Shown here: positions 265 through 61,273 of the stretch, one piece after another | Layout: the number at the start of each line of letters is the position of its first letter | How positions within the stretch are numbered: position 1 is the stretch's first letter | DNA from: Acidobacteriota bacterium | Lineage (GTDB): Bacteria; Acidobacteriota; Terriglobia; Terriglobales; Acidobacteriaceae | Direction: 5' to 3' | DNA: 64,000 nucleotides | Assembly: GCA_013288805.1 (NCBI GenBank) | Contig: JABDBE010000008.1 | Coordinates: 1-64,000 of the forward strand | Notes under the pieces: generated by a model | What the model was told of the DNA's origin: nothing | Seen by the model: the letters and a program-made list of their open reading frames with translations, nothing else | Databases searched by the model: none | Translations under genes and position numbers: made by a program

Positions 265-435
265 ATGATTGCACTCTTCGCGAAGACCTGGTTCCTGTGG
301 TGGTTGCTTGCAAGCGTGGTCATTCTGCGCTGGTTTTACGCCGTCGCCGTAGTTGATCCAGGGGATACCCAGTATCCGCCGAAACGCGACAAGCATGAGC
401 ACAGCATTCCCGGTCCGTTGGCCTCTCGAGCCTAG
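265..435 (+). CDS. possible small single-span membrane protein (56 aa)
   Basis: This lies in the otherwise empty stretch between the VCBS protein and carbonic anhydrase. A GGGGAGG sequence stands about 12 nt before an ATG. The frame encodes a short hydrophobic N-terminal segment rich in Trp, Phe, Leu and Val (about residues 8-25), then a polar tail. No family was recognised. The Shine-Dalgarno (SD) spacing is long and the C-terminus has no recognisable composition, so this could be a chance frame. Nothing else was seen between positions 104 and 520. Confidence 0.3.
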   Translation: MIALFAKTWFLWWLLASVVILRWFYAVAVVDPGDTQYPPKRDKHEHSIPGPLASRA

Positions 436-550
436 CCAGTCTTCTGGCATCGGCCTTAAGAAGTGACGGCCAGGTTGAATCCTGAGCGTTGAATAGTACC
501 GGCGTCCTCATTCGCCAAAAGGAGATTCGCATGAGCAGATTCTGTCCGAA

Positions 551-1111
551 GTGCTGGACGCAAACCAAAAGTACAGTGCGAGTTTTGGAGACAAAGGAAC
601 GTTAGCTCTGCCACCTGCGCGTCGCTTCGCGATTCTTACCTGCATGGATGCCCGGCTTGATCCCGCTAAATATGCCGGTCTCGCCGAAGGAGACGCACAT
701 GTGATTCGCAACGCGGGCGGCCGCGCCAGCGATGACGCCATCCGCTCTCTGGTGATCAGCTACAAGCTGCTGGGGACGCGGGAATTCTTTGTCATCCATC
801 ATACGAATTGTGGGATGGAGTTTTTCTCGAATGAAGTTATGCGCGGGTTGCTGGCGTCGAGTTTGGAGACGGCCGAATTGACGCCGAGTGGATTTCGTGA
901 CGTCGGCCGCGGTCCCGGATCCACCGCCGGCGAGCAGGTCGATTGGTTAACTATCAAAGATCAAAAGCAAGCCGTGCTCGATGATGTCGAACGCATTCGT
1001 ACTCATCCGCTGATCCCGAAGTCGATTCCGATTTACGGATTTATTTATGACGTGCAGTCCGGAAAGCTGATCGAGGTAGAAGGAGCTCAGGACGCAGGCA
1101 AAGCGGCCTGA
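551..1111 (+). CDS. beta-class carbonic anhydrase (start affected by an apparent 1-nt loss)
   Basis: Zinc enzyme for reversible hydration of CO2. The zinc ligands and catalytic dyad are visible: C31-x-D33-x-R (CMDARLD) and H84-x2-C87 (HHTNCG), with an IRNAGGR segment between them as in beta-carbonic anhydrases. The length of 186 aa fits the short cytoplasmic forms. The only in-frame start here is a GTG at 551. A good AAAAGGAG stands before an ATG at 531, but that ATG is in another frame. Restoring one G after it would give [10 protein letters not shown] in frame with the enzyme. The true start is therefore probably near 531 and the gene has lost one base, in nature or in assembly. A TauE/SafE exporter gene follows 25 nt downstream. 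Confidence 0.88.
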
Positions 1112-1136
1112 AGAAGTTTCTGGGGGGGGTAGATGT

Positions 1137-1916
1137 ATGCCGTGGGGTGCAGCAGCAATAGGATTATTGGTTGGCTTCTTAATTGGCCTGACCGGGATGG
1201 GCGGCGGAGCCATGATGACTCCGCTGTTGCTTTGGACGGGGTGGGCTGCGCCCACCGTCGCGGTTGGGACTGATCTGGTCTGGAACGCTCTGACGAAAGT
1301 CGTGGGCGCGGCGGTTCACTATCGCCATAGGAATGTGAATTTGAAGCTGGTTTGGCGGCTGGCGAGCGGAAGCGTTCCGGGAGCGTTGGTTGGCCTCTAT
1401 TTGTTGGGTTCGTTGAAAAAGTCTGCCGGGCTGGAGTTTGTCGACCATCTGATCGTTCGTCTGCTGGGCGGAACTCTGATTCTGGTGGCGGTGGGAATTA
1501 TCTTCAAGGCGTACATCCATCGTTGGCTTCCGGCGACAGCCACTCGATCCGCAACAGACGAGAACCTGCAAGGCTGGCAAGTGCCACTGCTGGGGTTCGT
1601 TGTGGGCGTGCTGGTTTCCTTGACCTCGGTCGGAAGCGGCAGCCTCATCGTAACTACTCTCTTGCTTATGTTTCCGGGCGAGAAGTTGAACCGGTTGGTA
1701 GGCAGCGACGTATTTCACGGAGTACTCATTGTTGGTGTGGCCGCGCTGGGACACTGGCGCCTCGGAGATGTGAACCTTCCGCTGGTGCTGGGCCTTCTCC
1801 TAGGATCCGTTCCCGGAGTTTGGCTGGGCAGCTTCATCGCCAGCCGCATACCCGAGGGAACTTTGCGCCCCGCCGTGGCCGCGCTTCTATTCGTGACCGG
1901 GGTGAAGTTGGTGTAG
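1137..1916 (+). CDS. TauE/SafE-family sulfite/organosulfonate exporter-like membrane protein
   Basis: 259 aa, almost entirely hydrophobic, with about eight predicted membrane spans in two similar halves. The first span carries the glycine-rich G-L-T-G-M-G-G-G motif. The second half repeats it in degenerate form (SLTSVGSGSLIV), as is typical of the TauE/SafE (DUF81) family. Members export small anions such as sulfite, sulfoacetate or sulfonates across the inner membrane, but the substrate cannot be read from sequence. The gene follows carbonic anhydrase closely and may be cotranscribed. A G-rich run just before the ATG serves as ribosome binding site. Confidence 0.85.
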   Translation: MPWGAAAIGLLVGFLIGLTGMGGGAMMTPLLLWTGWAAPTVAVGTDLVWNALTKVVGAAVHYRHRNVNLKLVWRLASGSVPGALVGLYLLGSLKKSAGLEFVDHLIVRLLGGTLILVAVGIIFKAYIHRWLPATATRSATDENLQGWQVPLLGFVVGVLVSLTSVGSGSLIVTTLLLMFPGEKLNRLVGSDVFHGVLIVGVAALGHWRLGDVNLPLVLGLLLGSVPGVWLGSFIASRIPEGTLRPAVAALLFVTGVKLV

Positions 1917-1937
1917 CTGAGAAGGCACCGATCAATT

Positions 1938-2837
1938 TTAGCGGCGCTTAAGAGCTTCCAGTTCATCCAGCGTACGCGGCCAATCTGATCGCAAGAGCCG
2001 GGACAGACTTCGATCCGCAAGAACTTTTCCTCCGGTTTGGCAGCGAGCACAATAATTGGTTTCATTGTCCGCGTAGCGAATTCGCTGAATCTTCTCGCCA
2101 CACCTCGGGCACGGTTCTCCATAGCGTCCGTGAACCGCCATCTCTTTGCGAAACGCAGTCACTTTTTCTGGAAAGCCAGTCTCCGCTTCGGCGCGCAGCC
2201 GGTCGATCCAAAGCTTGAGAGTGTTTTGGGTCGCTGCGAACAGGCGCTCCCATTCGTCCGGCTTTAGCTTTTGCGTCAGCGTGATCGGGGACAGTTGAGC
2301 AGCGTGCAAGATCTCGTCCGAATACGCGTTGCCGATACCGCTGAGGATGCGCGGATCTGTGAGCGCCCTTTTGAGCGTACGGTTTTCTGCTGTCAGCGCT
2401 TCGCGAAACGAGGCGAGATTGCTGCTGAACACGTCGATTCCTCCGGGGTCCACGGCCTGCAAAGCTTCCTCGCTGGCGAAAAGGTATAGCGACGCGCGAT
2501 GCTTTGTGCCAGCTTCTGTAAGCACGAGGGAGCCGTTGGGAAAATCGAAAGCTGCCAGGCTCTTGCGTCCCGCCAGCTTTGCTCCCTGCGGACGCCAGTG
2601 CAAGCGGCCGGCGATCATCAGGTGCAGCACCAGCCAGAGATGGCCTTCGACTCCGATTGCAATGCGCTTGCCTATGCGCCGCAACTCACGCACGATGCGG
2701 CCTTCGACATCCGTAAGCGCTGGTTGAACGGTACGAAGCAGAAACGGGCTCGCTAATCGGATATGCTCAATTGGCCGGCCGACGATCCGTGCTTCGAGCG
2801 CACTGATGTAAGCGGTAATATCTGGCAATTCTGGCAT
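1938..2837 (-). CDS. Fpg/Nei-family DNA glycosylase/AP lyase
   Basis: Base-excision repair enzyme of the formamidopyrimidine-DNA glycosylase superfamily, 299 aa. The N-terminus is M-P-E-L-P-D, giving the catalytic Pro2 and Glu3. A conserved lysine lies in RIGKRIAI near residue 58. A helix-two-turn-helix segment follows (ILSGIGNAYSDEIL). The C-terminus has a zinc finger with CPRCG and CARCQ pairs. The finger lacks the usual Arg of Fpg (the position before x-T-x-Y-C is Asn), and the N-terminus reads PDITAY rather than PEVET. It may therefore belong to a divergent Fpg/Nei group with different lesion specificity. It is convergent with the TauE gene, with only 21 nt between stops. Confidence 0.9.
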   Translation of the reverse strand: MPELPDITAYISALEARIVGRPIEHIRLASPFLLRTVQPALTDVEGRIVRELRRIGKRIAIGVEGHLWLVLHLMIAGRLHWRPQGAKLAGRKSLAAFDFPNGSLVLTEAGTKHRASLYLFASEEALQAVDPGGIDVFSSNLASFREALTAENRTLKRALTDPRILSGIGNAYSDEILHAAQLSPITLTQKLKPDEWERLFAATQNTLKLWIDRLRAEAETGFPEKVTAFRKEMAVHGRYGEPCPRCGEKIQRIRYADNETNYCARCQTGGKVLADRSLSRLLRSDWPRTLDELEALKRR

Positions 2838-2919
2838 GTTCCGTAGCTTGCAGTGCGCGACTGCGCTTTTGCAAGCGAGCTACTGGGCGAACTACACTGG
2901 GCGACTACTAAGATAGATC

Positions 2920-3312
2920 ATGGCCAGCGTTCGAATCGATAAATGGTTGTGGGCTGCCAGATTTTTTAAGACGCGCAGCCTGGCGGGGCGCGCGTGTGAA
3001 CTTGGCAGGATTCAATCCAACGGGCAACCCGCCAAGCCTGCGCGCGAGGTGCGGATCGGCGACATGTTGCAGGTGACCAACGAAGGCGGCGACTTTCAAG
3101 TGGAAGTTTTGGGCCTGAGCGAAGTTCGCGGTCCCGCGTCGGTGGCACAGACACTTTATCGCGAGACGGAGGCGAGTCGCGAACTACGACTGAAGGTCGC
3201 AGCCGAGCGCAGGGCGATGAAGCAATTCGAACAATTACCTGCAGGAAGGCCCGACAAGCGCGATCGGCGCAGAATCATCCAGTTCCGAGGGCGACTGTCA
3301 GAAGAAAAATGA
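2920..3312 (+). CDS. hslR: S4-domain RNA-binding protein, Hsp15-like
   Basis: 130 aa. The N-terminal S4 domain (about residues 2-60) opens with the hallmark R-I-D-K-W-L-W-A-A-R-F-F-K-T-R. The tail is basic and Arg/Lys-rich. In Hsp15, this fold binds stalled 50S subunits carrying peptidyl-tRNA and helps recycle them. The length matches E. coli Hsp15 (about 133 aa). It is divergent from the Fpg gene across about 80 nt, so they may share a promoter region. The symbol is given by family resemblance only. Confidence 0.85.
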   Translation: MASVRIDKWLWAARFFKTRSLAGRACELGRIQSNGQPAKPAREVRIGDMLQVTNEGGDFQVEVLGLSEVRGPASVAQTLYRETEASRELRLKVAAERRAMKQFEQLPAGRPDKRDRRRIIQFRGRLSEEK

Positions 3313-3330
3313 CCGGTAGTTGGCGGCCCA

Positions 3331-6174
3331 TCACTTTTTGCGGTTGTTCAATTCGTCGAGAGTGCGCTTCAGCTCTTCAAGCTTCTGTCCAGCCTCACCC
3401 AGCTTGCCTTCGGCCGTGAGGCGCTGGTAGTCCGCGAGGTCTTTGGCGGCGTGCGCGATGAGCGCGTTGAGATCCTCCCCGTTCGGTGGTGACGTAACAG
3501 ATGGCGGCGCATTTCGTGTTGCCTCGGGAGTTGCGGCAGCATTCGACGAAGCAGTCAGCGAAGACGACGCCCCTCCAAACAATGCCGCCATTGCCGACTC
3601 AAAGGTTGGCCCATACGCAAGCCGATCCTGTACAGCGAGCACCACCAGACGCAACTCAGGCATCGGGCTTCGCTCAGCCTGCAGATAAATCGGCTCCGCA
3701 TACAACAGCGCCTTCCCAGTCGGAATGACGAGCAGAGCGCCGCGGCGCACGTGCGAACCTTGCTGATTCCACAGCGTCAGTTGTCCGGAGAGCTGCGCGT
3801 TTTGATCGATTCGCGCTTCGATCTGCAGAGGTCCGTCGACCAGCTTGGTCTTGGGAAAGTTGTAGACGACCGACGTGCCGTAGTGTGCGCCATCGCTGCG
3901 CCCGGCGATCCAGCCAATCAGATTGTTCCGATTCGCGGGCGTGAATGGCAGAATCTCCACAAACTCCATGCCGCTTTCGTCTGGCAGTTTCATCAGTACG
4001 AAATTCGGTTCCATCGTCCGTGTCGTCTGCTCGCCGCCCTCACTCATTCCAACTTCAGTCGCGACCGTCCATAAATCCTCACGGTTGTAGAACGCTTCTG
4101 TATCCGTCATGTGATAGAGGCCGTAAACTTCGGCCTGCAGCTTGAGCAACAATTCCGGATAGCGTACGTGTTTGCGCAGGTCCGGAGGCATTGCCGCCGC
4201 ATCTTTGAACAAACCAGGAAAGATGCGTCGGTAAGCTGCAATGATCGGGTCTTCCGGATCAAATACATAAAACGTGGTCGTGCCATCGTAAGCGTCGATG
4301 ACGACCTTGACACTGTTCCGCATGTAGTTAAGGGCGCTGCTGTCGAGACGATAATGGGTCGAATATGGATAGCTATCTGAAACTGTAAATCCATCCATAA
4401 TCCATGACAGCCGGCCATCGTCGCCGAGAACGATGTATGGATCGGGATCGAAGGTCAGAAACGGCGCTAGTTCGGAGACGCGATCGCGGAGGTTGCGACG
4501 CATCAGCAAGCGGCTGTCCGGGGTCACGTCGTCGCTGAAGGGAAGCTTCGCAAGGTCGCCGCGGTCGAGAGCGATAATGATGCGCCGGAGAAAACCGCCG
4601 AGCAGGATGCCACCATTGCCCTCGTAGGAGTTTAGATTGTTGGTCTGGCCTTGCGGATAGTTGAATTCCTTCTGCCGTGTTTTCACGTAGACGTCGGTGT
4701 TCGTCAACTCGCCGAAATAAACTTCTGGCCGGGTCACGTTCAAACTATGCACCGTGCTCTGCACCGGCATGTTGCTCAGAATAAGAGTGGGCAACCCTTC
4801 CGGAGTGAATCCATTGACTGGGTTCATAGTGATGCCGTAACCGTGGGTGTAGATCAGCTTTTCGTTGATCCAGTTGCGGCTGCTCTCCGGGAGCTTGTCA
4901 ACGTTCAACTCGCGCGTGGCCAGCATAACCTCGCGAGTGGTGCCGTCGATTGCATAGCGATCAATGTCGATGTCAGGAAAATCGTAATAGGTGCGGATTT
5001 CCTGGATCTGACGAAGCGTGTCCTGCAGCGCGCGCCAGTCCCAAAGCCGGATGTTCTGCAGCGTAGCCTGATTGTTCGCCGGGTCGGCGGCCTCGACGGT
5101 CGTCTCCGCGGGAAACTCGCGCTGCAAGACGCGGTCCAACCCGTACGCCTGCCGAGTAAATTCGATGTTGTGGGCGATGTAGGGTTGCTCGCGAACTAGC
5201 TCGTTTGGTTTGACGATAAAACTGCTGACGTACCAGCCGACGATTTGAACCCCGAAATAACACACTATGGAAGGAACGATTGCGACGATAAGCCAGCGTC
5301 CGCGCTGCATCGACAGAGCGTTGGCGGCTGCGATCACCGCGCCGACAAGGAGCGCCGCACACACAACAAGCGTCCCGGTCAGCGTGACGTGCGCATCCGT
5401 GTAGGTCACACCTCCGAAGATCGTGTGATCCTCGAATAAACGCTCGAAGCGCCCGAGGTAGGACAGAATCGCCAGGACTAGCAACAGGAACGCAAAGCTG
5501 ATGGAAAATCCACGCCAGGGCAAAGTAACGGAGCTGCGGCGCGCGAGCACACTGCTTCCACCTGTGACAAGGAGAAAGAAAACCGCGAGCGCGCAAGTAA
5601 TTACGGCCAACGTAAGCAGCCAGCCGGCGATGAGCTGCCATGCCGGCAAAGTGAACAGAAAGAAATTCAGGGGCTTGCCGAAAATCGGGTCCATCACGCC
5701 ACCCGTGGCAGGCGGCACGTACAAAAAAAGCGCGAGCGTCGGCCATTCCGCCATCATCCCGGCGCCGGTTGCAAGGGCAATAGCCGCCGAAATACCCATC
5801 GCGATGAGCCGCAGGACGGGCTCGACCGGCAATCTCACTGGCTGCTGGCCGATGAATATTGTGTGGCCGCTCGGCAAATCCGGGAGATGCGCCCGCTTCA
5901 GGGCCATGAACGATCCGAACAGAATGAAAAATGTTGCGGCTGCAAAGACCGCGAAGATTCCCCACTGCAGGCTCAGTGTTTTCCAGTACACGGCGCCGTA
6001 GCCGAGCGATTCGAACCAGAGCACATCAACGTAATATGAGAGCGCAGTTCGTCCGACGAAGGCGATGCCGATAAGTACGGCGAGAATAAGAAGGAAACTA
6101 CGACGGCGGCGCGGCGGATACGCCCGCGGCCAGTCAATGGACTCGGGCATTGCCCAACCCCGTGTTCCGCGCAT
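3331..6174 (-). CDS. UPF0182 family large integral membrane protein
   Basis: 947 aa. The N-terminal third (about residues 25-310) holds some seven hydrophobic spans. A long soluble domain of about 600 residues follows, containing GYGITMNPVNGFTPEG and RWEL-like conserved blocks of the UPF0182/COG1615 family. The C-terminus has an Ala/Ser/Pro-rich linker and a Lys/Glu-rich coiled coil (about residues 905-945). Function is unknown across the family; members occur in actinobacteria, cyanobacteria and acidobacteria. Two Met starts are possible, at 6174 and eight codons later; neither has a strong ribosome binding site. The gene stands alone. Confidence 0.9.
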   Translation of the reverse strand: MRGTRGWAMPESIDWPRAYPPRRRRSFLLILAVLIGIAFVGRTALSYYVDVLWFESLGYGAVYWKTLSLQWGIFAVFAAATFFILFGSFMALKRAHLPDLPSGHTIFIGQQPVRLPVEPVLRLIAMGISAAIALATGAGMMAEWPTLALFLYVPPATGGVMDPIFGKPLNFFLFTLPAWQLIAGWLLTLAVITCALAVFFLLVTGGSSVLARRSSVTLPWRGFSISFAFLLLVLAILSYLGRFERLFEDHTIFGGVTYTDAHVTLTGTLVVCAALLVGAVIAAANALSMQRGRWLIVAIVPSIVCYFGVQIVGWYVSSFIVKPNELVREQPYIAHNIEFTRQAYGLDRVLQREFPAETTVEAADPANNQATLQNIRLWDWRALQDTLRQIQEIRTYYDFPDIDIDRYAIDGTTREVMLATRELNVDKLPESSRNWINEKLIYTHGYGITMNPVNGFTPEGLPTLILSNMPVQSTVHSLNVTRPEVYFGELTNTDVYVKTRQKEFNYPQGQTNNLNSYEGNGGILLGGFLRRIIIALDRGDLAKLPFSDDVTPDSRLLMRRNLRDRVSELAPFLTFDPDPYIVLGDDGRLSWIMDGFTVSDSYPYSTHYRLDSSALNYMRNSVKVVIDAYDGTTTFYVFDPEDPIIAAYRRIFPGLFKDAAAMPPDLRKHVRYPELLLKLQAEVYGLYHMTDTEAFYNREDLWTVATEVGMSEGGEQTTRTMEPNFVLMKLPDESGMEFVEILPFTPANRNNLIGWIAGRSDGAHYGTSVVYNFPKTKLVDGPLQIEARIDQNAQLSGQLTLWNQQGSHVRRGALLVIPTGKALLYAEPIYLQAERSPMPELRLVVLAVQDRLAYGPTFESAMAALFGGASSSLTASSNAAATPEATRNAPPSVTSPPNGEDLNALIAHAAKDLADYQRLTAEGKLGEAGQKLEELKRTLDELNNRKK

Positions 6175-52865: not shown

Positions 52866-53309
52866 CTAAACTCCCTCCCCGCGCAGCAAACCCCAAGCCT
52901 CCCGATACCGAGCATACTTATGCCGTTTGCTCCCCGGCGTGAAGTGCAACGTGCAATTCGTCCGCCCCATCACTTCATACGGAATGATGTACCAGGTATC
53001 AATCGGAATCAGATAAATCGCAAAAAAGTCCACCACCCCACTCGGATACCGCTCCCGATGCGCCCCCATCACATTCAAGCTGTAACACTCCCCGCGCCGC
53101 TTATACACGGTAGACTTCACCTGCACCCGCAGAATCCGCCCCTCGCGCTTCGGAGCCACGCACTCCACCCCCACATCGTAACTAGCCGAGTCCCCATAAG
53201 GCTTCGACACTCGCAGTCCCTGCCCCGCCGCCCGCGCCATAAAACAAAGTTCCGCCCACTCCCCGCGTTCCTTGCATCCCGCGATCCCCATTCCCCAGTT
53301 CGTAGTCAT
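52866..53309 (-). CDS. PD-(D/E)XK nuclease-fold protein
   Basis: 147 aa. The N-terminal helix holds E17/E20 in RGEWAEL. D45 lies in SYDVGVE and Q63-x-K65 in RVQVKST. This E...D...QxK order is the PD-(D/E)XK active site of the small 'PDDEXK endonuclease' group often found as single genes in Acidobacteriota and cyanobacteria. Biological role and target are unknown. Dense repeats lie downstream of its start. It stands at the edge of the accessory region. Confidence 0.78.
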   Translation of the reverse strand: MTTNWGMGIAGCKERGEWAELCFMARAAGQGLRVSKPYGDSASYDVGVECVAPKREGRILRVQVKSTVYKRRGECYSLNVMGAHRERYPSGVVDFFAIYLIPIDTWYIIPYEVMGRTNCTLHFTPGSKRHKYARYREAWGLLRGEGV

Positions 53310-53393
53310 ATCTCCCCTTTAATCCGCCAAAAAGATTCGCCAAAAAAAAGCGCAGCCAAAAGGCCGCGCCGTGTCTCGTCGAAATTGTGTAGA

Positions 53394-53411
53394 GCGGGCG
53401 CCCTCGCCCGC
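53394..53411. repeat. GCGGGCGccctCGCCCGC hairpin repeat
   Basis: An intergenic copy of the element also found inside yceH (34490-34510). It is the first of several repeats in the 710-nt gene-free stretch between 53310 and 54019. Confidence 0.6.
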
Positions 53412-53475
53412 GACCGTTGATCCTGACCCGAAAAAACGCCGTCACCCTAAGCCCGGCGCGTCAGAAAAGAATGTT

Positions 53476-53698
53476 GTCATCCTGAGCCGGCGCTTTTTGC
53501 CGAGCGAAGGATCTGAGCGTGCTGCGCACCGCGCCGCCGAGGCGCAACAAACGCGCGTTTAGCACGCTTCCAAATTGCCCTTCACCCAATGCCGTCATCC
53601 TGAGCCGGCGCTTTTTGCCGAGCGAAGGATCTGAGCGCGCTGCGCGCTGCGCCGCCGAGGCGCAATAAACGCGCGTTTAGCACGCCTCCAAATTGCCT
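53476..53698. repeat. tandem duplication of a long GTCATCCTGA element (period 118 bp)
   Basis: Two copies of about 105 nt start at 53476 and 53594 with GTCATCCTGAGCCGGCGC. Both contain TTTTTGCCGAGCGAAGGATC, GCCGCCGAGGCGCAA and CGCGCGTTTAGCACGC, and differ at only a few bases. Each includes imperfect inverted repeats. The copies are longer and better conserved than relatives elsewhere in the window, suggesting a recent local duplication. Confidence 0.75.
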
Positions 53699-53912
53699 TT
53701 GTCTGTTGTGGAATTACCGCAAGACCCGCCGCAAACTACCCACTACTTCTATGATAGCTGGATGAATAGGGTAACTATGCCATGTTTTCAATAAATATAT
53801 TCGCCCTGCCAGCAACAACTTACGAAGATTCGACCCCGTCAGGGGGCTTGACAAGATTTCGGCAAAAACCCGATTGTGCACCAATTTAGGTGCATTTGAC
53901 CCAAAAACTCCC

Positions 53913-53958
53913 AGCCCCGGAGGGGCGGCAGATAATAGCCCAGGACGTAAGTCCTGGG
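53913..53958. repeat. CCCAGGACTTACGTCCTGGG/CCCCGGAGGGGC double hairpin
   Basis: Two stems side by side: AGCCCCGGAGGGGC and CCAGGACGTAAGTCCTGG, separated by GGCAGATAATAG. Copies in the other orientation stand at 61274-61323 and 62655-62700. The same order and spacing in all three show a single dispersed element. Confidence 0.75.
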
Positions 53959-54019
53959 TAAGGCCAGAAAAAGACTCACGCCCCGCAGGGAAACACGAAC
54001 ACTCGCACGAAGCGCTCCC

Positions 54020-54274
54020 CTAACCAACCAAGACGAAAAACTCCTCCGGATACAAATAGTCTTCACCCGACTCGTCGATCACTCGCACTTGATGCCGTTT
54101 GGAAGCCTGCTCATCGGCCAGCACCCGATAGACTTTCCGCAACTCCAGCCCAGCAGGATAGCCCTCATTCCGCACGCAAAGGACCTCCGCCGCCCTGTGA
54201 ATCATCTCCCATGGGATGGAATGATTCTCAATCTTGACGTTGCCGTAGGCAAAGCTGCGCCGCGGGTGCCCCAT
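54020..54274 (-). CDS. small protein of unknown function; start codon supplied by a repeat
   Basis: 84 aa. The body, FAYGNVKIENHSIPWEMI through RRKVYRVLADEQ-like and VRVIDESGEDYLYPEEFF, looks like a real small domain and ends in FVLVG. However, the only plausible start (MGHPRRS) falls inside the hairpin repeat at 54264-54299. Either the repeat inserted at the gene's 5' end and donated a start, or the original start is lost and this is a remnant. No family was recognised. Confidence 0.5.
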   Translation of the reverse strand: MGHPRRSFAYGNVKIENHSIPWEMIHRAAEVLCVRNEGYPAGLELRKVYRVLADEQASKRHQVRVIDESGEDYLYPEEFFVLVG

Positions 54275-54299
54275 GTCTCGCGCCTTTCGAGACATGGGA
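54264..54299. repeat. CCCATGTCTCG/CGAGACATGGG hairpin repeat
   Basis: The second copy of the element at 35591, with matching changes in both arms. It overlaps the presumed 5' end of the small gene on the - strand. Confidence 0.65.
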
Positions 54300-54412
54300 T
54301 TCCCTCCTCCGGCGTAATCCGTATCGTTCTCGCCATCTCTATCGGCGAATCCGGGGCCCTGACTTGGTCCACATCGAATCGCAGCGCGCAAAGATTGCTA
54401 GAATGATGCTCG

Positions 54413-55489
54413 ATGCCGGGCACTGAATCCACAGGCGCCACCTCAGCGGACCTCGCTCATTCAGGCCTGTTGCGGACGTGTCGCGAAGCCGCTCTGAAGA
54501 CTCGCGAAAAGCTAGACCAACTGCTCTCAAAGGAGATTCCAGGGTATACCTCTGAGGACACGAGTCTTGTCGTATTTGGCTCGCTGGCCAGAGGAGAGTG
54601 GACTTCCGGCAGCGACCTCGATTGGACTTATCTGATAGACGGCGGGGCGAACTCGGATCATTTGGTGATTGCGCAGAACATCAACGAGGTTCTCGAAAAG
54701 GCAGGGTTTCAACGCCCTGGGCCGACCGAGACCTTTGGCAATATGGCCTTTAGCCACGACCTCGTTCATCAGATCGGTGGCCAGAACGATACCAATAAGA
54801 ACACGACCCAAAGAATCTTGCTCCTACTGGAATCGCGAGCGATTGGTAAGAGAACTGATGCCTACGAACGCGTGATCCGTGGCGTCATAAACCGCTATCT
54901 CGAGGAAGACAACCACCTGTTAACTCATGATTCGAAGAGATATCGCGTCCCCCGCTTTCTTCTGAACGACATCGTGCGATTTTGGAGAACCATGGCAGTC
55001 GATTTTGCCAGTAAACAACGAGACCGGGCTGGCAAGGGTTGGGGGTTACGCAATGCCAAATTGCGCATGTCGCGAAAGTTGATCTTTGCGTCCGGTCTGC
55101 TGGTTTGTTTCAGTGCGTATCTGGATCCAGATTTACAAACCAAGATTTCCACCGACCAGAAAGATGGTATAAAGCTCACACTGCTCCAGCACATTAGAGA
55201 TTGCGTGAGGCTGACTCCCCTCGAAATTCTTGCGAAGTCAATGGAGCGGTACGGAGTGTCTCAGTCGATTGCAAAAACTTTGTTTGATGCTTACACAGAA
55301 TTCCTGAAGTTACTTAGTGATGACAAGAGCCGCACAGCACTCGAGAATCTTCGATCGAGCGACTCGCGAACCGATCCCACATTCCGGCAGATTAGAGAGA
55401 TCAGTACAGTGTTCGAGGGTGCTCTTGACCACATTTTTTTCAAGAATAAGCTGATAGAGCCACTAACCAGGAAGTACGGGGTCTTTTGA
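54413..55489 (+). CDS. nucleotidyltransferase-fold protein, GlnD/DUF294-like
   Basis: 358 aa. The pol-beta nucleotidyltransferase motif is complete: G56-S57 in VVFGSLARGEW and D68-x-D70 in SGSDLDWTYL. The next 250 residues are helical, with RFLLNDIVRFWRTMAVDFA and GWGLRNAKLRMSRKLIFA as conserved-looking blocks, like the DUF294/GlnD-type putative nucleotidyltransferases. Target could be a protein, RNA or small molecule. Its TGA overlaps the ATG of the next gene, so the two are coupled. The pair points toward the reverse transcriptase unit; codons appear less GC-biased than in nearby core genes, which suggests transfer. Confidence 0.82.
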   Translation: MPGTESTGATSADLAHSGLLRTCREAALKTREKLDQLLSKEIPGYTSEDTSLVVFGSLARGEWTSGSDLDWTYLIDGGANSDHLVIAQNINEVLEKAGFQRPGPTETFGNMAFSHDLVHQIGGQNDTNKNTTQRILLLLESRAIGKRTDAYERVIRGVINRYLEEDNHLLTHDSKRYRVPRFLLNDIVRFWRTMAVDFASKQRDRAGKGWGLRNAKLRMSRKLIFASGLLVCFSAYLDPDLQTKISTDQKDGIKLTLLQHIRDCVRLTPLEILAKSMERYGVSQSIAKTLFDAYTEFLKLLSDDKSRTALENLRSSDSRTDPTFRQIREISTVFEGALDHIFFKNKLIEPLTRKYGVF

Positions 55490-56205
55490 TGAGGCGTATC
55501 GGATTTTCGACGGGCGCATTGGCGAGGAACGACTTCCGCAGAGCCCTGCAGATGCTGACCGGCAAGAACGTGTCTGCGGTGGAGCTTTCGGCTTTACGTC
55601 AAGACGAACTGATCCCACTAGTTGAGCAACTGGACCAATTGGACTTGAGTCCGTTCAAATACGTTTCATTTCACGCCCCAAGTGCAATGGAGCAATCGTT
55701 TGAGCCGCTAGCCCTGGAACTTCTTTTGCAGGTTGCAGTTCGCAAATGGCCAATAATTGTCCATCCGAATGCGATGTACAACCCGTCGGAGTGGCGTCGT
55801 CTCGGCAATTGCCTTTGTATCGAGAACATGGACAAGCGAAAGCCGATCGGGCAGACGGCAAAAGATCTGGCAGAAATCTTCGAAACCGTGCCGGATGCCT
55901 CCTTCTGCTTCGACATCGGCCATGCTCGCCAGGTCGATCCTACAATGAGCGAAGCATCTGCAATTCTTCACCGCTTCCGTGACAGAATTCGACAGCTCCA
56001 CGTAAGCGAAGTAAATACCCAAAGCAAGCACGACCCCTTGAGCTTCGAATCGATTCTCGCCTTCCACAAAGTGTCCCACCTCGTGCCCGCAGACGTTCCA
56101 GTGATCCTCGAGAGCAAAGTCCAAGAATCAGAGATCAATGGGGAGATCGAAAGTGCTCTTAACGCGCTGAGGGTAGATAATGTGCTCGCGCTGACCGGCG
56201 ATTAA
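55489..56205 (+). CDS. TIM-barrel protein, xylose isomerase/AP endonuclease-like
   Basis: 238 aa, ATG overlapping the stop of the nucleotidyltransferase (TGATG). A compact TIM barrel with candidate metal ligands at the strand ends: FHAPSA, VHPNAMY, CIENMD, CFDIGHARQVD, LHVSEVN and VILESKV. This pattern of His/Glu/Asp matches the sugar phosphate isomerase/epimerase and endonuclease IV group. It is shorter than most isomerases. Coupling suggests it acts with the nucleotidyltransferase, perhaps making or removing a modified group. Convergent with the reverse transcriptase gene, 29 nt between stops. Confidence 0.78.
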   Translation: MRRIGFSTGALARNDFRRALQMLTGKNVSAVELSALRQDELIPLVEQLDQLDLSPFKYVSFHAPSAMEQSFEPLALELLLQVAVRKWPIIVHPNAMYNPSEWRRLGNCLCIENMDKRKPIGQTAKDLAEIFETVPDASFCFDIGHARQVDPTMSEASAILHRFRDRIRQLHVSEVNTQSKHDPLSFESILAFHKVSHLVPADVPVILESKVQESEINGEIESALNALRVDNVLALTGD

Positions 56206-56234
56206 GAAGGATGGGCTCCACACAGTTCGTGCGA

Positions 56235-57224
56235 CTAAGCTGACGCATCGAGAAACCGCTTGTCGGATTCCGTCAGGGGTCGCCCTTTACTCACCGCCGC
56301 TAGGTCGTTCGCATAATAGCAAACGTCCTCGGGACAGAGCTGATGGATGTAGCGAAGCTGCGCAACCAGACCGTTGATGTACTTCTCCTCGTCCTCTTCC
56401 CTCACCAAGCCAGTTCGCAACTTGTGGATGCCCGACCGAATTCTTGAGAGCTTCTCCTTCGGGGCGCGTACCTGTCGTGCCCCGAGCCTTGTCCCAGTGA
56501 GGAGCTTGATCGCTCTCGGCCCCATAATTCTTATCTTTTTCCGCGATAGCCGAAGTCCGTGAGCCGCGAGCACCGAGGCCGCCACTTGGATCAATTCGCG
56601 TGCGTGCTCGCCGGAGAACGCGAGGTCGTCTATCCAAGTTGAATACGCAACATTCAGATTTGTGCAGGCCCTTCTGATCGGTTCGTCGATCATCCAGATA
56701 AACAAATTAGCAAGAAGTGGACTCGTCGCGGCCCCCTGCGGCAGGCGTCGCTGAAAAGTCGTGAGCTGCGTCAGAAGCGCCGCTACAGGTGTGGAGCAGC
56801 CCAGTAATTTCCTCCAAACCTGGTAAACCTGGACATTCGTTATGCTCGGGAAGCACTGTCTTATGTCGAGCGTCACCAGTAGAGCGGCATTCAAATGCCG
56901 CCCTGCGTTATCCCGCACGCTGCGCTTCGGGATCGCCCCGAAAATATGCTCCGGGAAGCAAATGGGCTTGAGCAATCGACGGTAGATCCGCTTTTGGACC
57001 CAACTGAGTTCTTTCATGGGGTTGTCGATTGGGCGCAGCTTGGAGGGAGGCTGTCTCTGAAATGGCCGAGACCGCGCAACTGTCTCGAACGGGTCGTAGT
57101 TCAGTTCCGGCTCGACCGAGAGCCTAACCAGCGTTTCTCTTGGGACCTTGAGCATGTCGGCCAGCCGATTTATGCTCAGAACGCGGAGCTTTTCGACCAC
57201 GGGTGCTATTCCTGGCGGTTCCAT
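56235..57224 (-). CDS. retron-type reverse transcriptase
   Basis: 329 aa, ATG 5 nt after GGAGG. Catalytic Asp of motif A is D120 (VTLDIRQCFPSI); the motif C dyad is D199-D200 in WIDDLAFSG. QGAATSP at 163-169 is the retron/group II type, not the GxxxSQ of diversity-generating elements. The retron-diagnostic N-A-x-x-H is N106-AGRH in the expected place before motif A. The VTG motif appears as L-T-G-T-R-L-G at 242-248. There is no maturase or endonuclease domain, and the length is right for a retron RT. Odd: Trp where motif C usually has Tyr. The 5' end lies inside the upstream HTH gene. Retrons are anti-phage systems in which the RT and its msDNA guard an effector; the effector here is not certain. 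Confidence 0.88.
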   Translation of the reverse strand: MEPPGIAPVVEKLRVLSINRLADMLKVPRETLVRLSVEPELNYDPFETVARSRPFQRQPPSKLRPIDNPMKELSWVQKRIYRRLLKPICFPEHIFGAIPKRSVRDNAGRHLNAALLVTLDIRQCFPSITNVQVYQVWRKLLGCSTPVAALLTQLTTFQRRLPQGAATSPLLANLFIWMIDEPIRRACTNLNVAYSTWIDDLAFSGEHARELIQVAASVLAAHGLRLSRKKIRIMGPRAIKLLTGTRLGARQVRAPKEKLSRIRSGIHKLRTGLVREEDEEKYINGLVAQLRYIHQLCPEDVCYYANDLAAVSKGRPLTESDKRFLDASA

Positions 57225-57510
57225 CTTCGCCTCCGCCCAACAACAATCTACTGAGGCCGATAGCCAAACGATTAATCGTCTCGGAATCGGCGTTCTTCAC
57301 ATCCTTCCGCTCGGATGCAAGAAGTGTGAACAGGTGAAGTGGGATTCCAAGAGCCTCAGAGATTCTCTCAAGAATTTCCAGACTCGGCTTCCGCTTTCCA
57401 CTCTCCAGCATGCAGACGAGGCTGGAGTCCACGGAAATCCGCTTCGCGAGCTCGCGCTGTGGCATATCGGCGAGAGCTCGCGCAACACGAATGGCTTTTG
57501 AGTAGTTCAT
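57124..57510 (-). CDS. XRE-family helix-turn-helix regulator
   Basis: 128 aa from the ATG at NYSKAIRVARAL; a TTG 16 codons upstream has no ribosome binding site. The Cro/CI HTH spans about residues 6-60 (MPQRELAKRISVDSSLVCMLESGKRKPSLEILERISEALG). After LAIGLSRLLLGGG the last 35 residues, rich in Arg, Lys, Gly and Ser, are encoded in the overlap with the reverse transcriptase and look like out-of-frame sequence. The overlap of 101 nt implies translational coupling or an ancestral shift of the stop. Likely regulator of the unit, acting on the inverted repeat at 58145-58181, or a component of the retron complex. Confidence 0.85.
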   Translation of the reverse strand: MNYSKAIRVARALADMPQRELAKRISVDSSLVCMLESGKRKPSLEILERISEALGIPLHLFTLLASERKDVKNADSETINRLAIGLSRLLLGGGEDGTARNSTRGRKAPRSEHKSAGRHAQGPKRNAG

Positions 57511-57583
57511 TTGGCCCAAAGAATTCTTGGATGTGAGTTTTCCCCGGAACTCGAGCAATAGAAAGCCAAATAGCTCACGCTAA

Positions 57584-57793
57584 TCAGCGAACGAAGGTCT
57601 TAATGATCGCCTCAGCTACTGTCCGAACGGCCCTGAAGATTTCTCTTCTGCTAGGATTCGGCCTTCGCCAAAGGCCTCTCAGTTCGCCCTCCGCCTTTTC
57701 TAGTGCACTTCTCTGTTCCGGTTCGAGTCCATCTCGCCTCTGCATGGATTGAAGTTCATCCCTGCAGAATTGCAAGTTCTTGTCTTTTTTCAT
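57584..57793 (-). CDS. small charged protein heading the reverse transcriptase unit (69 aa)
   Basis: AAGGAG stands 7 nt before the ATG. The product is helical and highly charged (KDKNLQFCRDELQSMQRRDG and EQRSALEKAEGELRGLWRRP), with one Cys near residue 10 and no membrane span. It resembles small accessory or antitoxin-like proteins, but no family was recognised. Its ribosome binding site lies in a strong stem (57796-57852), so translation may be regulated. It is the first gene of the unit; the HTH gene starts about 75 nt downstream. Confidence 0.68.
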   Translation of the reverse strand: MKKDKNLQFCRDELQSMQRRDGLEPEQRSALEKAEGELRGLWRRPNPSRREIFRAVRTVAEAIIKTFVR

Positions 57794-57795
57794 TG

Positions 57796-57852
57796 CATTC
57801 TCCTTACCGGCAGTTGCCGGTGCCGCAGAAGGCAGCTGTCCGAAGGAGAATG
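57796..57852 (-). promoter_or_regulatory. RNA stem masking the ribosome binding site of the 69-aa gene
   Basis: On the transcribed (-) strand CATTCTCCTT (57852-57843) pairs perfectly over 10 bp with AAGGAGAATG (57805-57796), which contains the SD sequence. Directly inside is a second hairpin, ACCGGCA-AC-TGCCGGT (57821-57806). When folded, the ribosome binding site is closed. Release by a protein or by reverse transcription of the leader would open it. Confidence 0.6.
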
Positions 57853-58128
57853 GACCGAACCGAAAAACTCACCCAACGTGTGCCGCACAACTCGCTACGT
57901 ACACGTCCGACACCCCACATATATATCCCCCGGTAACCGAGAGTACACAGGTAGCAGCGTCAGATTGATGGTTTAACCTCCCCATCGCAGTGAATGGCTA
58001 ATCACCCACCGCATTACGTCCCCCGTCCGTTGACGAGGGACTCGACCATGGAAGCAACCCGACTGCTAGAGAACGAATTGTCAAAGAACTTGCCGAATCG
58101 CCGTAACGGCGATCCAACCACACCCTAA
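57853..58128 (-). ncRNA. candidate structured leader RNA, possible retron msr-msd
   Basis: A gene-free, transcribed stretch of about 275 nt between the promoter-like sequence and the first gene. On the - strand it holds ATCGCCG-TTA-CGGCGAT (58113-58097), a TAGCAGTC segment, an interrupted stem GTCCC/CGTC with GACG/GGGAC (58041-58018), and GTGA-TTAGCCAT-TCAC. A longer bulged stem GCTAC...GTAC against GTAC-GTAGC (about 57957-57894) completes it. Retron ncRNAs lie upstream of the RT and are two to three such hairpins plus one long one. Flanking a1/a2 pairing was not found convincingly, so the assignment is tentative. Confidence 0.4.
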
Positions 58129-58150
58129 TTGAAAACTATGTCGATGTCAA
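58122..58150 (-). promoter_or_regulatory. promoter-like sequence for the reverse transcriptase unit
   Basis: On the - strand TTGACA (58150-58145) is followed after 17 nt by TAGGGT (58127-58122). The -35 is perfect and the -10 matches at three positions. The -35 lies inside the inverted repeat at 58145-58181, so a bound regulator would shut it off. Confidence 0.45.
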
Positions 58151-58181
58151 TAAAAATGACAACAAGTCAATTTTATTGACA
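58145..58181. promoter_or_regulatory. 11-bp inverted repeat operator at the head of the reverse transcriptase unit
   Basis: TGTCAATAAAA (58145-58155) and TTTTATTGACA (58171-58181) are exact complements with a 15-nt spacer, which itself contains TGACAACAAGTCA, so TGTCA/TGACA half-sites recur. It is strongly AT-rich against a GC-rich genome and begins immediately beyond the nrdJ stop codon. An autoregulatory site for the HTH protein is the simplest explanation. Confidence 0.65.
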
Positions 58182-61172
58182 CTAGCTACACCCGCTCGTG
58201 CTGCCGCAGCTTCCGCATCTGTAGCAGCTTCCGTTGCGGGTCATGATCGATCCGCAGAAGGAGCAGGTTGGGGCGTCGCCGAGGTCGATGATTCCGGCGA
58301 GGGCGTCGGCGGCGTGGTGGCTTCCGGCGGCGGGGACGGGCGAGGACGCCCGGCTTCCACTTACTTCCGTCGAGCCGTTTATGTCTCCTACTGCTTCGGC
58401 TGTTGGCGGCGCGCTTGGCCGCAGGCGCAGGTTCTCGAACAGCATTTGCTGCTGGCCGGTGGAGAAGCGCAGATCGAGCCAGCGGAAGATGTAATCCATG
58501 ATCGACTTGGCGAAGCCGATGTCGGGATTGCCGCTCCAGCCGCTGGGCTCGAAGCGGGTGTGGGCAAACTTCTCGCACAGCAGTTTCAGCGGCACGCCGT
58601 GTTGCAGAGCGATGGAGACGGCGCAGGAGAAGCTGTCCATGAGGCCGCTGACCGTCGATCCCTCTTTGGCCATGGTGATGAAGATTTCGCCCACGCTGTC
58701 ATCGGGGTAAAGTCCGACGGTGATGTAGCCCTCGTGTCCGCCCACGTTGAATTTGTGGGTGATCGATCTTCTTTCAGCCTGCAGTTTGTGGCGCACGGCG
58801 CGCGGAGGCCCGTTGAGATTTTCTTCTTCGCGTGGAGCTGCCGCAGCAGCCGCATCACCCTTTTTCGAAAGCGCAGTCGAACTGCCGGCCGCGCTGAGTG
58901 GCTGCGACTTCTTGCATCCGTCGCGATAGACGGCGACGGCTTTGAGCCCCAGCTTCCACGCCTGCAGATAAGCTTCCATGATGTCTTCGACGGAAGCGCT
59001 CTCAGGCAAGTTCACAGTCTTAGAAATTGCTCCGGAGATAAACGGCTGCGTAGCCGCCATCATCCGCAGGTGGCCCATGTATGCGATCGACCGAGTCCCC
59101 TTGGCCGGCTTGAACGAACAATCAAACACCGCGAGATGCGCGTCTTGGATATGAGGCGCGCCCTCGATGGTTCCCGTCGCATCGATGTAGCTGACAATCT
59201 TGTCGGCCTCATCATGCGAGTACCCCAGCTTGAACAAAGCCGTAGGCACAGTGTTGTTGACAATCTTAATCATCCCCCCGCCTACCAGCTTTTTGTACTT
59301 CACCAGCGCTAGATCGGGCTCTACACCAGTTGTGTCGCAGTCCATCATGAAGCCTATTGTGCCTGTGGGGGCCAGGACTGTTACCTGGGAGTTTCTGTAG
59401 CCGTGTTTTTCGCCTTGGGCCAGGGCTTCGTCCCAGGCTTGTTTGCTGGCTTCGTATAACGGAGTTGGGATGTTGTTTTTATTTATGTTGTTGACTGAGG
59501 CGCGGTGCATTCGGATTACGTCGAGGAATGGCTCGCGGTTTATGTACCAGCCGGGGCAGGCTCCTCCGGGCATTACGTTGGAGCCTAGATTGGTTTCGGC
59601 CAGGCCCTTTTTTGTTGGCTCGGTTGCTGGAACCAACGGCGGGCAGAGCTCTGCAATTCTTGAGGATTGCAGATAGGCTTGGCCGCACATGATTGCGGTG
59701 ACGCAGGCGGCGTAGTCGCGTCCGGCGTCGGAGTCGTAGGGCAGGCCTGCGGCCATCAGGAGTGCGCCTAGGTTTGCGTAGCCTAATCCCAATGGCCGGT
59801 AATCGTGGGAATTCTTGCCGATCATTTCTGTCGGGTAGCCCGCGTTGTCGACCAGAATTTCTTGCGCCGTGATTAACACATCTACCGCGTGACGATAGGC
59901 TTCTACGTCGAAGGTTCCGTTGGGCGCGAACTTCAGCAGGTTCAGGCTGGCGAGGTTGCAAGCTGAGTCATCGAGGAACATGTATTCGCTGCACGGATTG
60001 CTTGCGTTGATCCGATTCGTGTTCTTCGAAGTGTGCCAGCGGTTGACGGTGCTATCGAATTGCATGCCAGGATCGCCGCAGCGCCAGGTGGCGTCGGAGA
60101 TCTTGTAGAGCAGATCTTTGGCTTTGAAGGTGTGCAGGGGCCGTCCGTCTTTTACCGCCTTGGTACTGAAGTCAGTGTCGCGGAGGACGGCGTACATGAA
60201 GTCATCGGTCACACGGACGGAGTTGTTGGCGTTCTGGAAAAAGATGGAAGAGTAAGCGTCAGAATCGGGCGATGATCCGTCGTAGCCGGTCGCGATCAGG
60301 GCGTGAGCCTTAGCTTCTTCTTTCGACTTGCACTCGATGAAGTCGATGATGTCGGGATGGTCGATGTTGAGGATGACCATCTTGGCGGCGCGGCGAGTCT
60401 TGCCTCCGGATTTGATGACACCGGCGAAGGCGTCGAAGCCCTTCATGAAGCTGAGTGGGCCGCTGGCTGTGCCTCCGCCGCTTAGACCTTCGGTCGAGGA
60501 ACGCAGCGGGGAAAGATTGGTGCCGGTGCCCGATCCCCATTTGAAGAGCATGCCTTCGGTCTTGGCGAGAGTCAGGATGGAGTCGAGCGAATCCTGCACT
60601 GAGTTGATGAAGCAGGCGGAACACTGCGGGCTGCTGTAGCCGGTTACTCCGAATTCGACGCGACCGGCTACTGGATTCCAGTGCCAGTTGCGGGCGTCGG
60701 AATCGGGCTCAATGCGATCACAGCCTACGTTGAACCAGACCGGAGAATTGAATGCCGCGTATTGGCGAAGCAGGATGTGGGCGAGTTCGTCGTGAAACGT
60801 GGCGCCATCTTCAGGAGTTTTGAAATAGCCTTGCGCCAAACCCCAGTCGCGGATGGTTTCAGCGACGCGAGTTACCAGGGCGCGAACTCCGGATTCGCGG
60901 TCGGGCGTGCCGATAGTCCCATGCAGGTATTTCGAGGCCACGATGTTGGTCGCGGTCATCGACCAGTCTTTGGGAACTTCGACGTCCTTTTGCTCGAAGA
61001 TGGTGTTGCCTTGCGCGTCGGTGATCTGAGCGATGCGGCGCTCCCATTCGATCTCATCGTAGGGCGAGACGCCGGGCTTGGTAAAGAAGCGGCGGAAAGT
61101 TAGACCTGGGGCTTTCTTGGTGGAGACGGTCTCAGTGGTAGTGTGGGCTCCCTTTACAGTGACTTCCGACAT
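58182..61172 (-). CDS. nrdJ: adenosylcobalamin-dependent (class II) ribonucleotide reductase
   Basis: 996 aa, ATG behind AGGAG. Reduces ribonucleotides to deoxyribonucleotides with a thiyl radical made by coenzyme B12. The redox Cys near residue 184 (SPQCSACF), the finger-loop N-P-C-S-E at about 392-396 with the radical Cys and catalytic Glu, and the loop PTGTIGFMMDCDTTG are visible. A C-terminal domain carries C-S-F-C and C-Y-R-C-G-S-C-G, a zinc-ribbon or reducing tail. It works without oxygen dependence. A near-perfect NrdR box lies upstream of the preceding genes. No second class of ribonucleotide reductase is in the window. Confidence 0.96.
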   Translation of the reverse strand: MSEVTVKGAHTTTETVSTKKAPGLTFRRFFTKPGVSPYDEIEWERRIAQITDAQGNTIFEQKDVEVPKDWSMTATNIVASKYLHGTIGTPDRESGVRALVTRVAETIRDWGLAQGYFKTPEDGATFHDELAHILLRQYAAFNSPVWFNVGCDRIEPDSDARNWHWNPVAGRVEFGVTGYSSPQCSACFINSVQDSLDSILTLAKTEGMLFKWGSGTGTNLSPLRSSTEGLSGGGTASGPLSFMKGFDAFAGVIKSGGKTRRAAKMVILNIDHPDIIDFIECKSKEEAKAHALIATGYDGSSPDSDAYSSIFFQNANNSVRVTDDFMYAVLRDTDFSTKAVKDGRPLHTFKAKDLLYKISDATWRCGDPGMQFDSTVNRWHTSKNTNRINASNPCSEYMFLDDSACNLASLNLLKFAPNGTFDVEAYRHAVDVLITAQEILVDNAGYPTEMIGKNSHDYRPLGLGYANLGALLMAAGLPYDSDAGRDYAACVTAIMCGQAYLQSSRIAELCPPLVPATEPTKKGLAETNLGSNVMPGGACPGWYINREPFLDVIRMHRASVNNINKNNIPTPLYEASKQAWDEALAQGEKHGYRNSQVTVLAPTGTIGFMMDCDTTGVEPDLALVKYKKLVGGGMIKIVNNTVPTALFKLGYSHDEADKIVSYIDATGTIEGAPHIQDAHLAVFDCSFKPAKGTRSIAYMGHLRMMAATQPFISGAISKTVNLPESASVEDIMEAYLQAWKLGLKAVAVYRDGCKKSQPLSAAGSSTALSKKGDAAAAAAPREEENLNGPPRAVRHKLQAERRSITHKFNVGGHEGYITVGLYPDDSVGEIFITMAKEGSTVSGLMDSFSCAVSIALQHGVPLKLLCEKFAHTRFEPSGWSGNPDIGFAKSIMDYIFRWLDLRFSTGQQQMLFENLRLRPSAPPTAEAVGDINGSTEVSGSRASSPVPAAGSHHAADALAGIIDLGDAPTCSFCGSIMTRNGSCYRCGSCGSTSGCS

Positions 61173-61273
61173 TTCTTTTTTCTCCTGCGGAGTCTTTGCT
61201 CCGCCTGTTTTGAATATCCGTTACCGACAAATTGCTGGGCCGGGCGAGGCCTCGGTCTTGTTTTCATGCCCAA

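Follow-up and report, generated by a model that had tools for sequence, protein, structure and literature searches.

Which gene of a small retron unit is its effector, and what keeps that effector from being made before it is needed? The question is raised by a locus in a 64,000-nt stretch of DNA from an Acidobacteriota bacterium (assembly GCA_013288805.1, contig JABDBE010000008.1, positions 1 to 64,000; below, the window is this whole stretch). Its (-) strand carries a structured leader followed by three genes, all with open frames, in the order small 69-aa open reading frame (ORF), XRE-family helix-turn-helix (HTH) gene, retron reverse transcriptase (RT) gene. In our opinion, with a probability of roughly 0.55, this is a type VI retron whose leader is at once the retron non-coding RNA (ncRNA) and the 5' untranslated region (5' UTR) of the small ORF, and in which a complex of RT, RNA and DNA would occlude the start of a small toxic effector until infection. 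The three genes are the following.

56235..57224, (-) strand: retron reverse transcriptase, type VI, 329 aa (PADLOC, Pfam, likeness to Ec86)
57124..57510, (-) strand: XRE-family HTH protein, type VI partner, likely an autorepressor (PADLOC, Pfam, same place in relatives)
57584..57793, (-) strand: 69-aa small protein, a predicted three-helix bundle with an amphipathic C-terminal helix, candidate toxic effector (kept upstream of the HTH gene, AF2 model, purifying selection)

The unit is assigned to type VI because both its RT and its HTH protein are best matched by PADLOC models of that type, RT_VI for the former (1.6e-65; the next model, RT_II-A, reaches 1.5e-49) and HTH_VI for the latter (4.6e-19, the top of 17 hits); the two genes are neighbours in the same direction. 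Judged by these profiles it is an ordinary member of the type, a known, little-studied class of anti-phage retron that reportedly goes back to the retron classification of Mestre et al. 2020. The initial annotation had already recognised a retron, and the top PADLOC models, together with Ec86 as the closest solved RT by sequence (4.7e-28 in PDB), bear this out; it had overlooked the type VI placement, the pairing of the leader with the ribosome binding site and the boxA-like motif. The RT motifs that it listed are all present: the NAxxH motif as N106-A107-x-x-H110, the VTG-like motif with T243-G244, QGxxxSP as QGAATSP from residue 163, and the DD pair as D199-D200. Indeed N106, A107, H110, T243 and D199 are invariant among five aligned RTs. 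Pfam gives RVT_1 as the sole match at E 0.1, in agreement with the statement that no maturase or endonuclease domain is attached. The YxDD site of the window RT reads WIDD, and F, W or Y is found there in other type VI RTs. As a separate observation, a type VI-like RT at L004:1492-2397 (-) has RYVDN, with DN replacing the catalytic DD, and is possibly inactive, its unit being otherwise kept. The HTH gene, placed upstream of the RT in the same direction by the initial annotation as well, matches Pfam HTH_3 besides HTH_VI; its ORF spans 57124-57558 (-), the ATG at 57510 is the start consistent with relatives, and the gene overlaps the RT gene by 101 nt. The protein looks like the known type VI partner and like an autoregulator.

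Does the small ORF belong to the unit? A scan of genome contigs gave 47 RT-recruited loci, and 29 of them have the order small ORF-HTH-RT (L034-L043, L045-L055, L057-L061, L066, L072 and L079, where L042 and L043 are identical to L002 and L003); these counts are not an unbiased survey, since RT motifs were used to find the type VI-like loci. RT_VI is the best model for every RT scanned among the 29 units (L034, L045, L055 and L066). Among the other 18 loci, eleven are best matched by other RT models (L044, L062-L065, L067-L069, L071, L073, L076), L075 and L080 match no RT model at 1e-45, L056 is RT_VI, and L070, L074, L077 and L078 lie outside the scan. The same gene order is seen beyond the 47 in L004, in a Pseudomonas plasmid (L006), in a viral-collection contig (L033) and in an Alteromonas and a Psychrobacter plasmid (L088, L089), for both of which RT_VI is best, in L088 nearly tied with RT_V. 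Thus the small ORF and the HTH gene are kept beside the RT, as one would expect if the unit first proposed is genuine. The Flavobacterium locus L056 (L056:1988-3346) is instructive: besides its RT_VI it carries a boxA and a small basic ORF, and no HTH gene adjoins the RT; therefore the small ORF is favoured over the HTH gene as the core partner. The same locus will be useful for asking which component is the effector. As far as sequence comparison goes, the unit thus has a third conserved gene, the small ORF, for which the profile libraries searched offer no match.

At 1e-20 the window RT has matches in 5 of 396 genomes from the phylum, one of them the genome it comes from. A search with alignment A1 gave four places at 6.7e-118 or better and then a tail from 9.5e-49; the four outlying places are rows of A1 itself (window, L002, L003, L004), hence this search yielded no further type VI RT. 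Viral contigs gave no match with the window RT, the L055 RT or the L066 RT; with A1 they gave two loci (L032, L033), and the L058 RT led to the same two contigs. Phage records searched with the L045 RT gave none at 1e-30. The L079 DNA matches 173 of 5,426 E. coli genomes, none of them covering 80% of the query, with 4-5% covered among the matches listed.

Compared with L034 the gene of the 69-aa protein is under purifying selection (dN 0.20, dS 0.64), and dN is below dS for all three genes of the unit. Its 23 aligned members are of low identity (mean column identity 30%), and the AF2 three-helix model made from a 21-row alignment has a mean pLDDT of 91.4; in Acidobacteriota the C-terminal helix is amphipathic, and its proteobacterial counterpart is in most cases more hydrophobic. 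The window protein has 0 family matches in PADLOC, Pfam, PHROGs and NCBIfam. When 21 small proteins were compared with NCBIfam, 7 families came up with one member each (best 0.0089), and PHROGs gave only weak matches, the best being 0.032 for L006 and 0.12 for L055. We also considered the matches of a small-protein profile to PDB sequences (best 0.0027, Mussoc; FADD at about 0.02) and took them as helix noise. The initial annotation had named the small protein, the HTH protein and the facing nucleotidyltransferase (NTase)/TIM pair as possible effectors; we favour the first, because it is conserved and because its start is wired into the retron RNA, and do not favour the other two. The small protein is likely to be a toxic effector.

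What then is this wiring? The leader has the following elements, given from 5' to 3'.

58145..58161, (-) strand: operator-like palindrome TGTCATTTTTATTGACA (TGTCA-N7-TGACA), which includes the TTGACA -35 box
57794..58121, (-) strand: structured leader that serves as the small ORF's 5' UTR and would be the retron ncRNA (fold, conserved blocks; the 5' end is guessed from the -35 box)
58092..58118, (-) strand: hairpin directly upstream of boxA, in a boxB-like position (a similar stretch precedes boxA in proteobacterial leaders, by eye)
58078..58089, (-) strand: boxA-like antitermination motif GTTCTTTGACAA (leader comparison, motifs upstream of 16S, published consensus)
58068..58078, (-) strand: a1 strand ATTCGTTCTCT, pairing with the Shine-Dalgarno (SD)/start region (permutation test; RNAalifold helix at the same place in proteobacterial leaders)
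58011..58055, (-) strand: msr-like hairpin (GAGUC...GAC GUAAUGC), 3' of a1 (covariation in acidobacterial sequences)
57857..57876, (-) strand: conserved 3' block TTGGGTGAGTTTTTCGGTTC (leader comparison)
57840..57852, (-) strand: anti-SD arm CATTCTCCTTCGG, the 5' arm of a terminal hairpin (weak covariation)
57807..57820, (-) strand: inner hairpin CCGGCAACTGCCGG between anti-SD and SD (leader comparison)
57792..57804, (-) strand: a2 strand, formed by the small ORF's SD and start region (permutation test, folding)

In a retron the ncRNA is closed by the pairing of a1 with a2; the branch guanosine follows immediately 3' of a1, and reverse transcription begins immediately 5' of a2. The hairpin-rich leader that had been described for this locus is borne out by its fold, which is better than that of shuffled sequences (z -6.7, 0 of 100 shuffles as good). 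Directly after boxA comes a1, and the complementary SD/start region follows some 290 nt downstream; across 21 loci the distance is some 240-390 nt. If the leader is the retron RNA, the SD lies inside a2, and therefore the start of the effector would be part of that RNA.

The evidence for this pairing is its specificity. Over 21 loci the cognate a1:a2 duplexes have a mean energy of -13.3 kcal/mol, versus -10.1 kcal/mol for non-cognate ones, and 0 of 20,000 permutations was as good as the cognate assignment. Within groups the figures are 6 of 20,000 (12 acidobacterial loci) and 40 of 20,000 (9 proteobacterial loci). Five control strands shifted from a1 reach the observed value in 325-4,774 of 5,000 permutations for the acidobacterial loci, in 765-4,764 for the proteobacterial ones and in 780-4,919 for all 21. 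The test covers 21 of 32 leaders, eight proteobacterial leaders (many near kept ones) and three Bacteroidota leaders that have no SD having been left out, and like the boxA count given below it ignores kinship. In the best duplexes at least 3 SD bases are paired in 16 of 21 loci and the other 5 touch the start codon; we regard these counts as secondary to the permutation test, because the segment was chosen to contain the SD and the AUG. RNAalifold, too, keeps an a1:SD helix in 10 of 12 proteobacterial leaders, with both-sided changes in 2 of 7 pairs; the helix is absent from L047 and L055, whose rows have gaps in this part of the alignment. Set against random segments of the leader, L087, which is closely related to L049, scores 40 of 2,000. 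The msr-like hairpin adds both-sided changes in 4 of 10 pairs among 5 acidobacterial sequences. Hence there is a covarying RNA signal in the leader, where the initial annotation had thought that a retron ncRNA should be sought.

Folding predicts that this arrangement closes the ribosome binding site. The SD of the small ORF, AAGGAG, had been called a strong ribosome binding site, and both the ORF and the SD stand; the site is predicted to be sequestered. In the window the SD has a predicted unpaired probability of 0.13 in the full leader and of 0.69 when the leader is cut 5' of the SD; the means for 21 loci are 0.25 and, with the cut directly 5' of the SD, 0.64. Among the Bacteroidota, where no SD is visible, inspection by eye shows hairpins at the start codon of L056, L060 and L066 and none in L061.

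The boxA-like motif immediately before a1 is the second peculiarity of the leader. The pattern G[CTG]TCTTTRA lies no more than 600 nt from the small ORF in 30 of 32 leaders, many of which are closely related, versus 0.43 expected from base shuffles; the two misses are L039, which has GATCTTTGA, and L061, with the nearest upstream copy about 700 nt away. In 18 other RT loci it occurs within 1,200 nt in 2 (0.33 expected), namely L056 and L065. Within the window's genome assembly GTTCTTTGACAATT occurs once. According to the accessible part of PMC5725501, which deals with boxA antitermination of rRNA and suhB, the gammaproteobacterial consensus is GYTCTTTAANA, and this exact form is present in 10 of 32 leaders. 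The motif can also be compared with the lineage's own rRNA. 16S was found in 3 of 7 genomes searched (the window's own is absent from its assembly), and about 130-320 nt upstream of it stand TCTTTGACAA (L081), GTTCTTTGAAAAC (L082) and TCTTTGAAAAC (L083, with a second copy further upstream). From their position we infer that these are the rrn boxA elements of the lineage. The motif of the retron leaders matches them: L004, from the same genome as L082, has GCTCTTTGAAAAC, and in genome G175 TCTTTGAAAAC is common to the copy upstream of 16S and the retron copy. An observation apart from this is L065:1440-3274, a Phycisphaerales unit of an HTH gene and an RT closest to type III-A; some 1 kb upstream of that RT stands a boxA, GCTCTTTAACA.

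An E. coli type V retron (L090, RT_V 2.6e-127) was meant to serve as the negative control for boxA. It turned out to have a perfect GCTCTTTAACA, which follows a hairpin and lies about 450 nt upstream of the RT. Hafnia (L092), Halomonas (L093) and Klebsiella (L094) loci have CTCTTTAAAA in a comparable place, with CTCTTTAA at 447-535 nt before the RT, so that a boxA-like motif and a small unannotated ORF precede the RT in 4 of 4 type V loci examined, out of 34 matching plasmid records. The small ORFs have 60 (L090, at 930-1113), 60 (L092), 94 (L093, TTG start) and 73 (L094) codons; those of L090, L092 and L094 are clearly alike and lie about 20-245 nt before the RT. From these sequences boxA may mark a larger V/VI branch that has the same plan. 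It may also be noted that the type V loci may have another effector besides the annotated cold-shock or Se72-type protein.

Given these elements, we envisage the following. The boxA-like element, which NusB/E would bind, would help RNA polymerase through the untranslated leader. In the uninfected cell the RT would bind the leader RNA and copy its msd part from the branch guanosine next to a1, giving multicopy single-stranded DNA (msDNA). The start of the small gene would be kept closed by a1 within the RT-RNA-DNA complex, whereas in unprocessed RNA the second anti-SD arm would do so. Host RNase H would remove the copied msd RNA, and the mRNA would then be held to the complex through a1:a2 alone. 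If a phage interferes with the RT, its DNA or the complex, the start would be freed, the small protein made, and the infected cell would stop growing. The HTH protein would repress the shared promoter. Since the start would be held by the complex and freed by its loss, the RT-DNA complex would act as an antitoxin at the level of translation. Whether this extends to type VI as a whole, and perhaps to type V, as a class of translation-gating retrons in which the effector's ribosome binding site is a2, the complex is the antitoxin and boxA recruits Nus factors, we regard as a tentative proposal that falls somewhat short of even odds.

Several results weigh against this reading. An Rfam search of 53500-61200 returned no retron ncRNA (Acido-Lenti-1 came above its gathering score and three weak matches below theirs), and the branch-G site, clear in Proteobacteria, is by eye only loosely kept in Acidobacteriota. 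Removing a1 in silico leaves the SD closed (mean 0.18 unpaired, 0.06 in the window), since the other anti-SD arm takes over. That second arm covaries weakly in Acidobacteriota (288 of 20,000) and not significantly in Proteobacteria (13,905 of 20,000), so as the main covarying element it is unsupported in the latter. Individual loci also perform unevenly: the window a1 ranks its own a2 a middling 5th of 12, the L043 pairing is poor (rank 10 of 12), L088 has a boxA and an a1:a2 pairing that does not surpass random segments of the leader (486 of 2,000), and in L089 the boxA pattern is missing. The bare form GNTCTTTRANA has 3 copies in the 64-kb window versus 0.87 expected, and boxA, being found in type V too, is not specific to type VI and is ruled out as its hallmark by L090, L092, L093 and L094. 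Lastly, Foldseek with the small-protein model found no match at or below 0.001 in PDB or viral models.

The alternative that survives best, though we consider it clearly improbable, is a toxin-antitoxin (TA) system at the protein level: the HTH protein would bind and neutralise the small protein, the RT-DNA would act as a sensor that binds or releases the HTH protein, and the leader pairing would only tune expression. Indeed the small ORF stands directly before an XRE HTH gene in the 29 counted loci, as in type II TA of the XRE type, and operator-like palindromes overlap or adjoin the promoter. The operator and promoter assumed upstream of the unit from the beginning are seen as the TGTCA-N7-TGACA palindrome overlapping the TTGACA -35 box; of 12 acidobacterial leaders, 6 have this palindrome or its looser form TGTC-N9-GACA. 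With the pattern used, a different palindrome, like TTCACTnnCAGTGAA, turns up in 9 of 17 leaders from Proteobacteria and in 1 of 3 from Bacteroidota. A general promoter scan of 56200-58300 adds nothing, because it gave 2 sites versus 1.1 expected. However, L056, which is RT_VI, has the small ORF and no adjacent HTH gene, and a covariation of a1 with the SD is not what neutralisation by a protein predicts.

It is less probable still that the small protein is a structural partner of the RT or the msDNA and that the effector is the HTH protein or something outside the unit. The missing toxin-family match of the small protein would suit this, and so would the type V loci L090, L092 and L094, where a small ORF stands beside a separately annotated downstream protein. 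However, in L056 no HTH gene is next to the RT, Pfam finds in the window HTH protein HTH-type domains, one weak unrelated match and nothing else, and the facing NTase/TIM pair occurs in no other locus compared. Slightly lower again we would place ordinary leader attenuation, in which the SD pairing lowers basal translation independently of reverse transcription. The second anti-SD arm and the SD that stays closed when a1 is removed in silico speak for it; however, a1 lies at the place expected of a retron a1, at its distance of 240-390 nt, and covaries with the SD region. Finally, a decayed, non-functional retron, which the WIDD at the YxDD site and a metagenome-assembled genome only 54% complete might suggest, is very improbable in view of three open genes with dN below dS and of F, W or Y at that site in other type VI RTs.

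There remain the genes around the unit. Facing it is

54413-56205, (+) strand: a pair of an NTase-fold protein and a second protein that has no Pfam match (PADLOC PDC-M70A/B, 2.8e-138 and 4.8e-100).

The unit had been described as lying beside another accessory pair, and PADLOC agrees, with PDC-M70A and PDC-M70B side by side. As an effector we reject this pair, and since it matches PDC-M70 and is absent from the other loci compared (most flanks reach 1.5-2.5 kb past the RT match), it is probably not part of the unit and rather a separate PADLOC candidate system. The claim that the unit sits among repeats is less exact: none is seen bounding it, and the sole long repeat in 53000-58300 is about 2.5 kb away, a 113-nt tandem repeat at 53470-53700 in two head-to-tail copies that are 93% identical. 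Directly upstream of the leader on the (-) strand is the gene 58182-61172, which we take to be nrdJ, B12-dependent ribonucleotide reductase. nrdJ adjoins the type VI retron in the window, L034, L035, L038 and L043, in the last on the other side and convergent; either retrons have repeatedly inserted at this site, or the two are linked in function, by way of deoxynucleotide (dNTP) supply for the RT. Further away on the (-) strand the window holds an Acido-Lenti-1 small RNA at 53913-53958 (62.1 versus a gathering score of 37 bits) and, at 52866-53309, a protein resembling PD-(D/E)XK endonucleases (Pfam PF11645, 6.8e-18), which may belong to a larger accessory region.

How new is this arrangement? 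In the open literature we found no account of an SD within a2, of a boxA before a1 or of the third gene, the founding type VI paper and most subscription journals being outside that search. The term 'type VI' is absent from the main text of PMC12548924 and from the accessible part of PMC13405049, and in that of PMC8934634 it refers to CRISPR; the one paper found to use the phrase 'type VI retron' is PMC8541194. The new part would thus be the leader wiring: an effector start in the putative a2, a boxA before a1 and a conserved third gene.

If true, this makes the retron an RNA/DNA antitoxin, in which sabotage of reverse transcription by a phage would lead directly to toxin synthesis. The usual account of retrons is that an effector protein is held by the RT-DNA, and control here would be unlike that protein-level control of other types. 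Type VI would gain a defined effector, with toxin, ncRNA and sensor each breakable by a few base changes; if the boxA holds, control by Nus factors would extend to the ncRNAs of defence systems.

Compared with type VI as PADLOC knows it, the unit differs in its conserved small ORF, unmatched in profile libraries, and in the start region that would be a2 of the putative ncRNA. Type V (Se72-like) is close, RT_V being the second-best model for the proteobacterial type VI RTs L045 and L055; however, no HTH gene is annotated there between small ORF and RT, the small ORF differs in sequence, and downstream lie a 'retron Se72 family effector' in L090 and cold-shock domain proteins in L092 and L094. 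Ec86/Eco1 (type II), whose RT is the nearest solved one by sequence, has the order a1, branch G, msr, and the order in this leader is similar. Its effector is a ribosyltransferase that forms filaments with RT and msDNA, according to the accessible part of PMC12948488. That effector is assembled with RT and msDNA, whereas here control would be on effector translation. With rRNA and suhB the boxA shares its place: it follows a hairpin early in a long untranslated RNA, here in retron leaders. In type I TA systems an RNA antitoxin blocks translation of the toxin, and the likeness is that an RNA pairs with the SD of a small toxin-like ORF; the difference is that here the pairing strand would be retron RNA in cis, tied to a reverse transcriptase.

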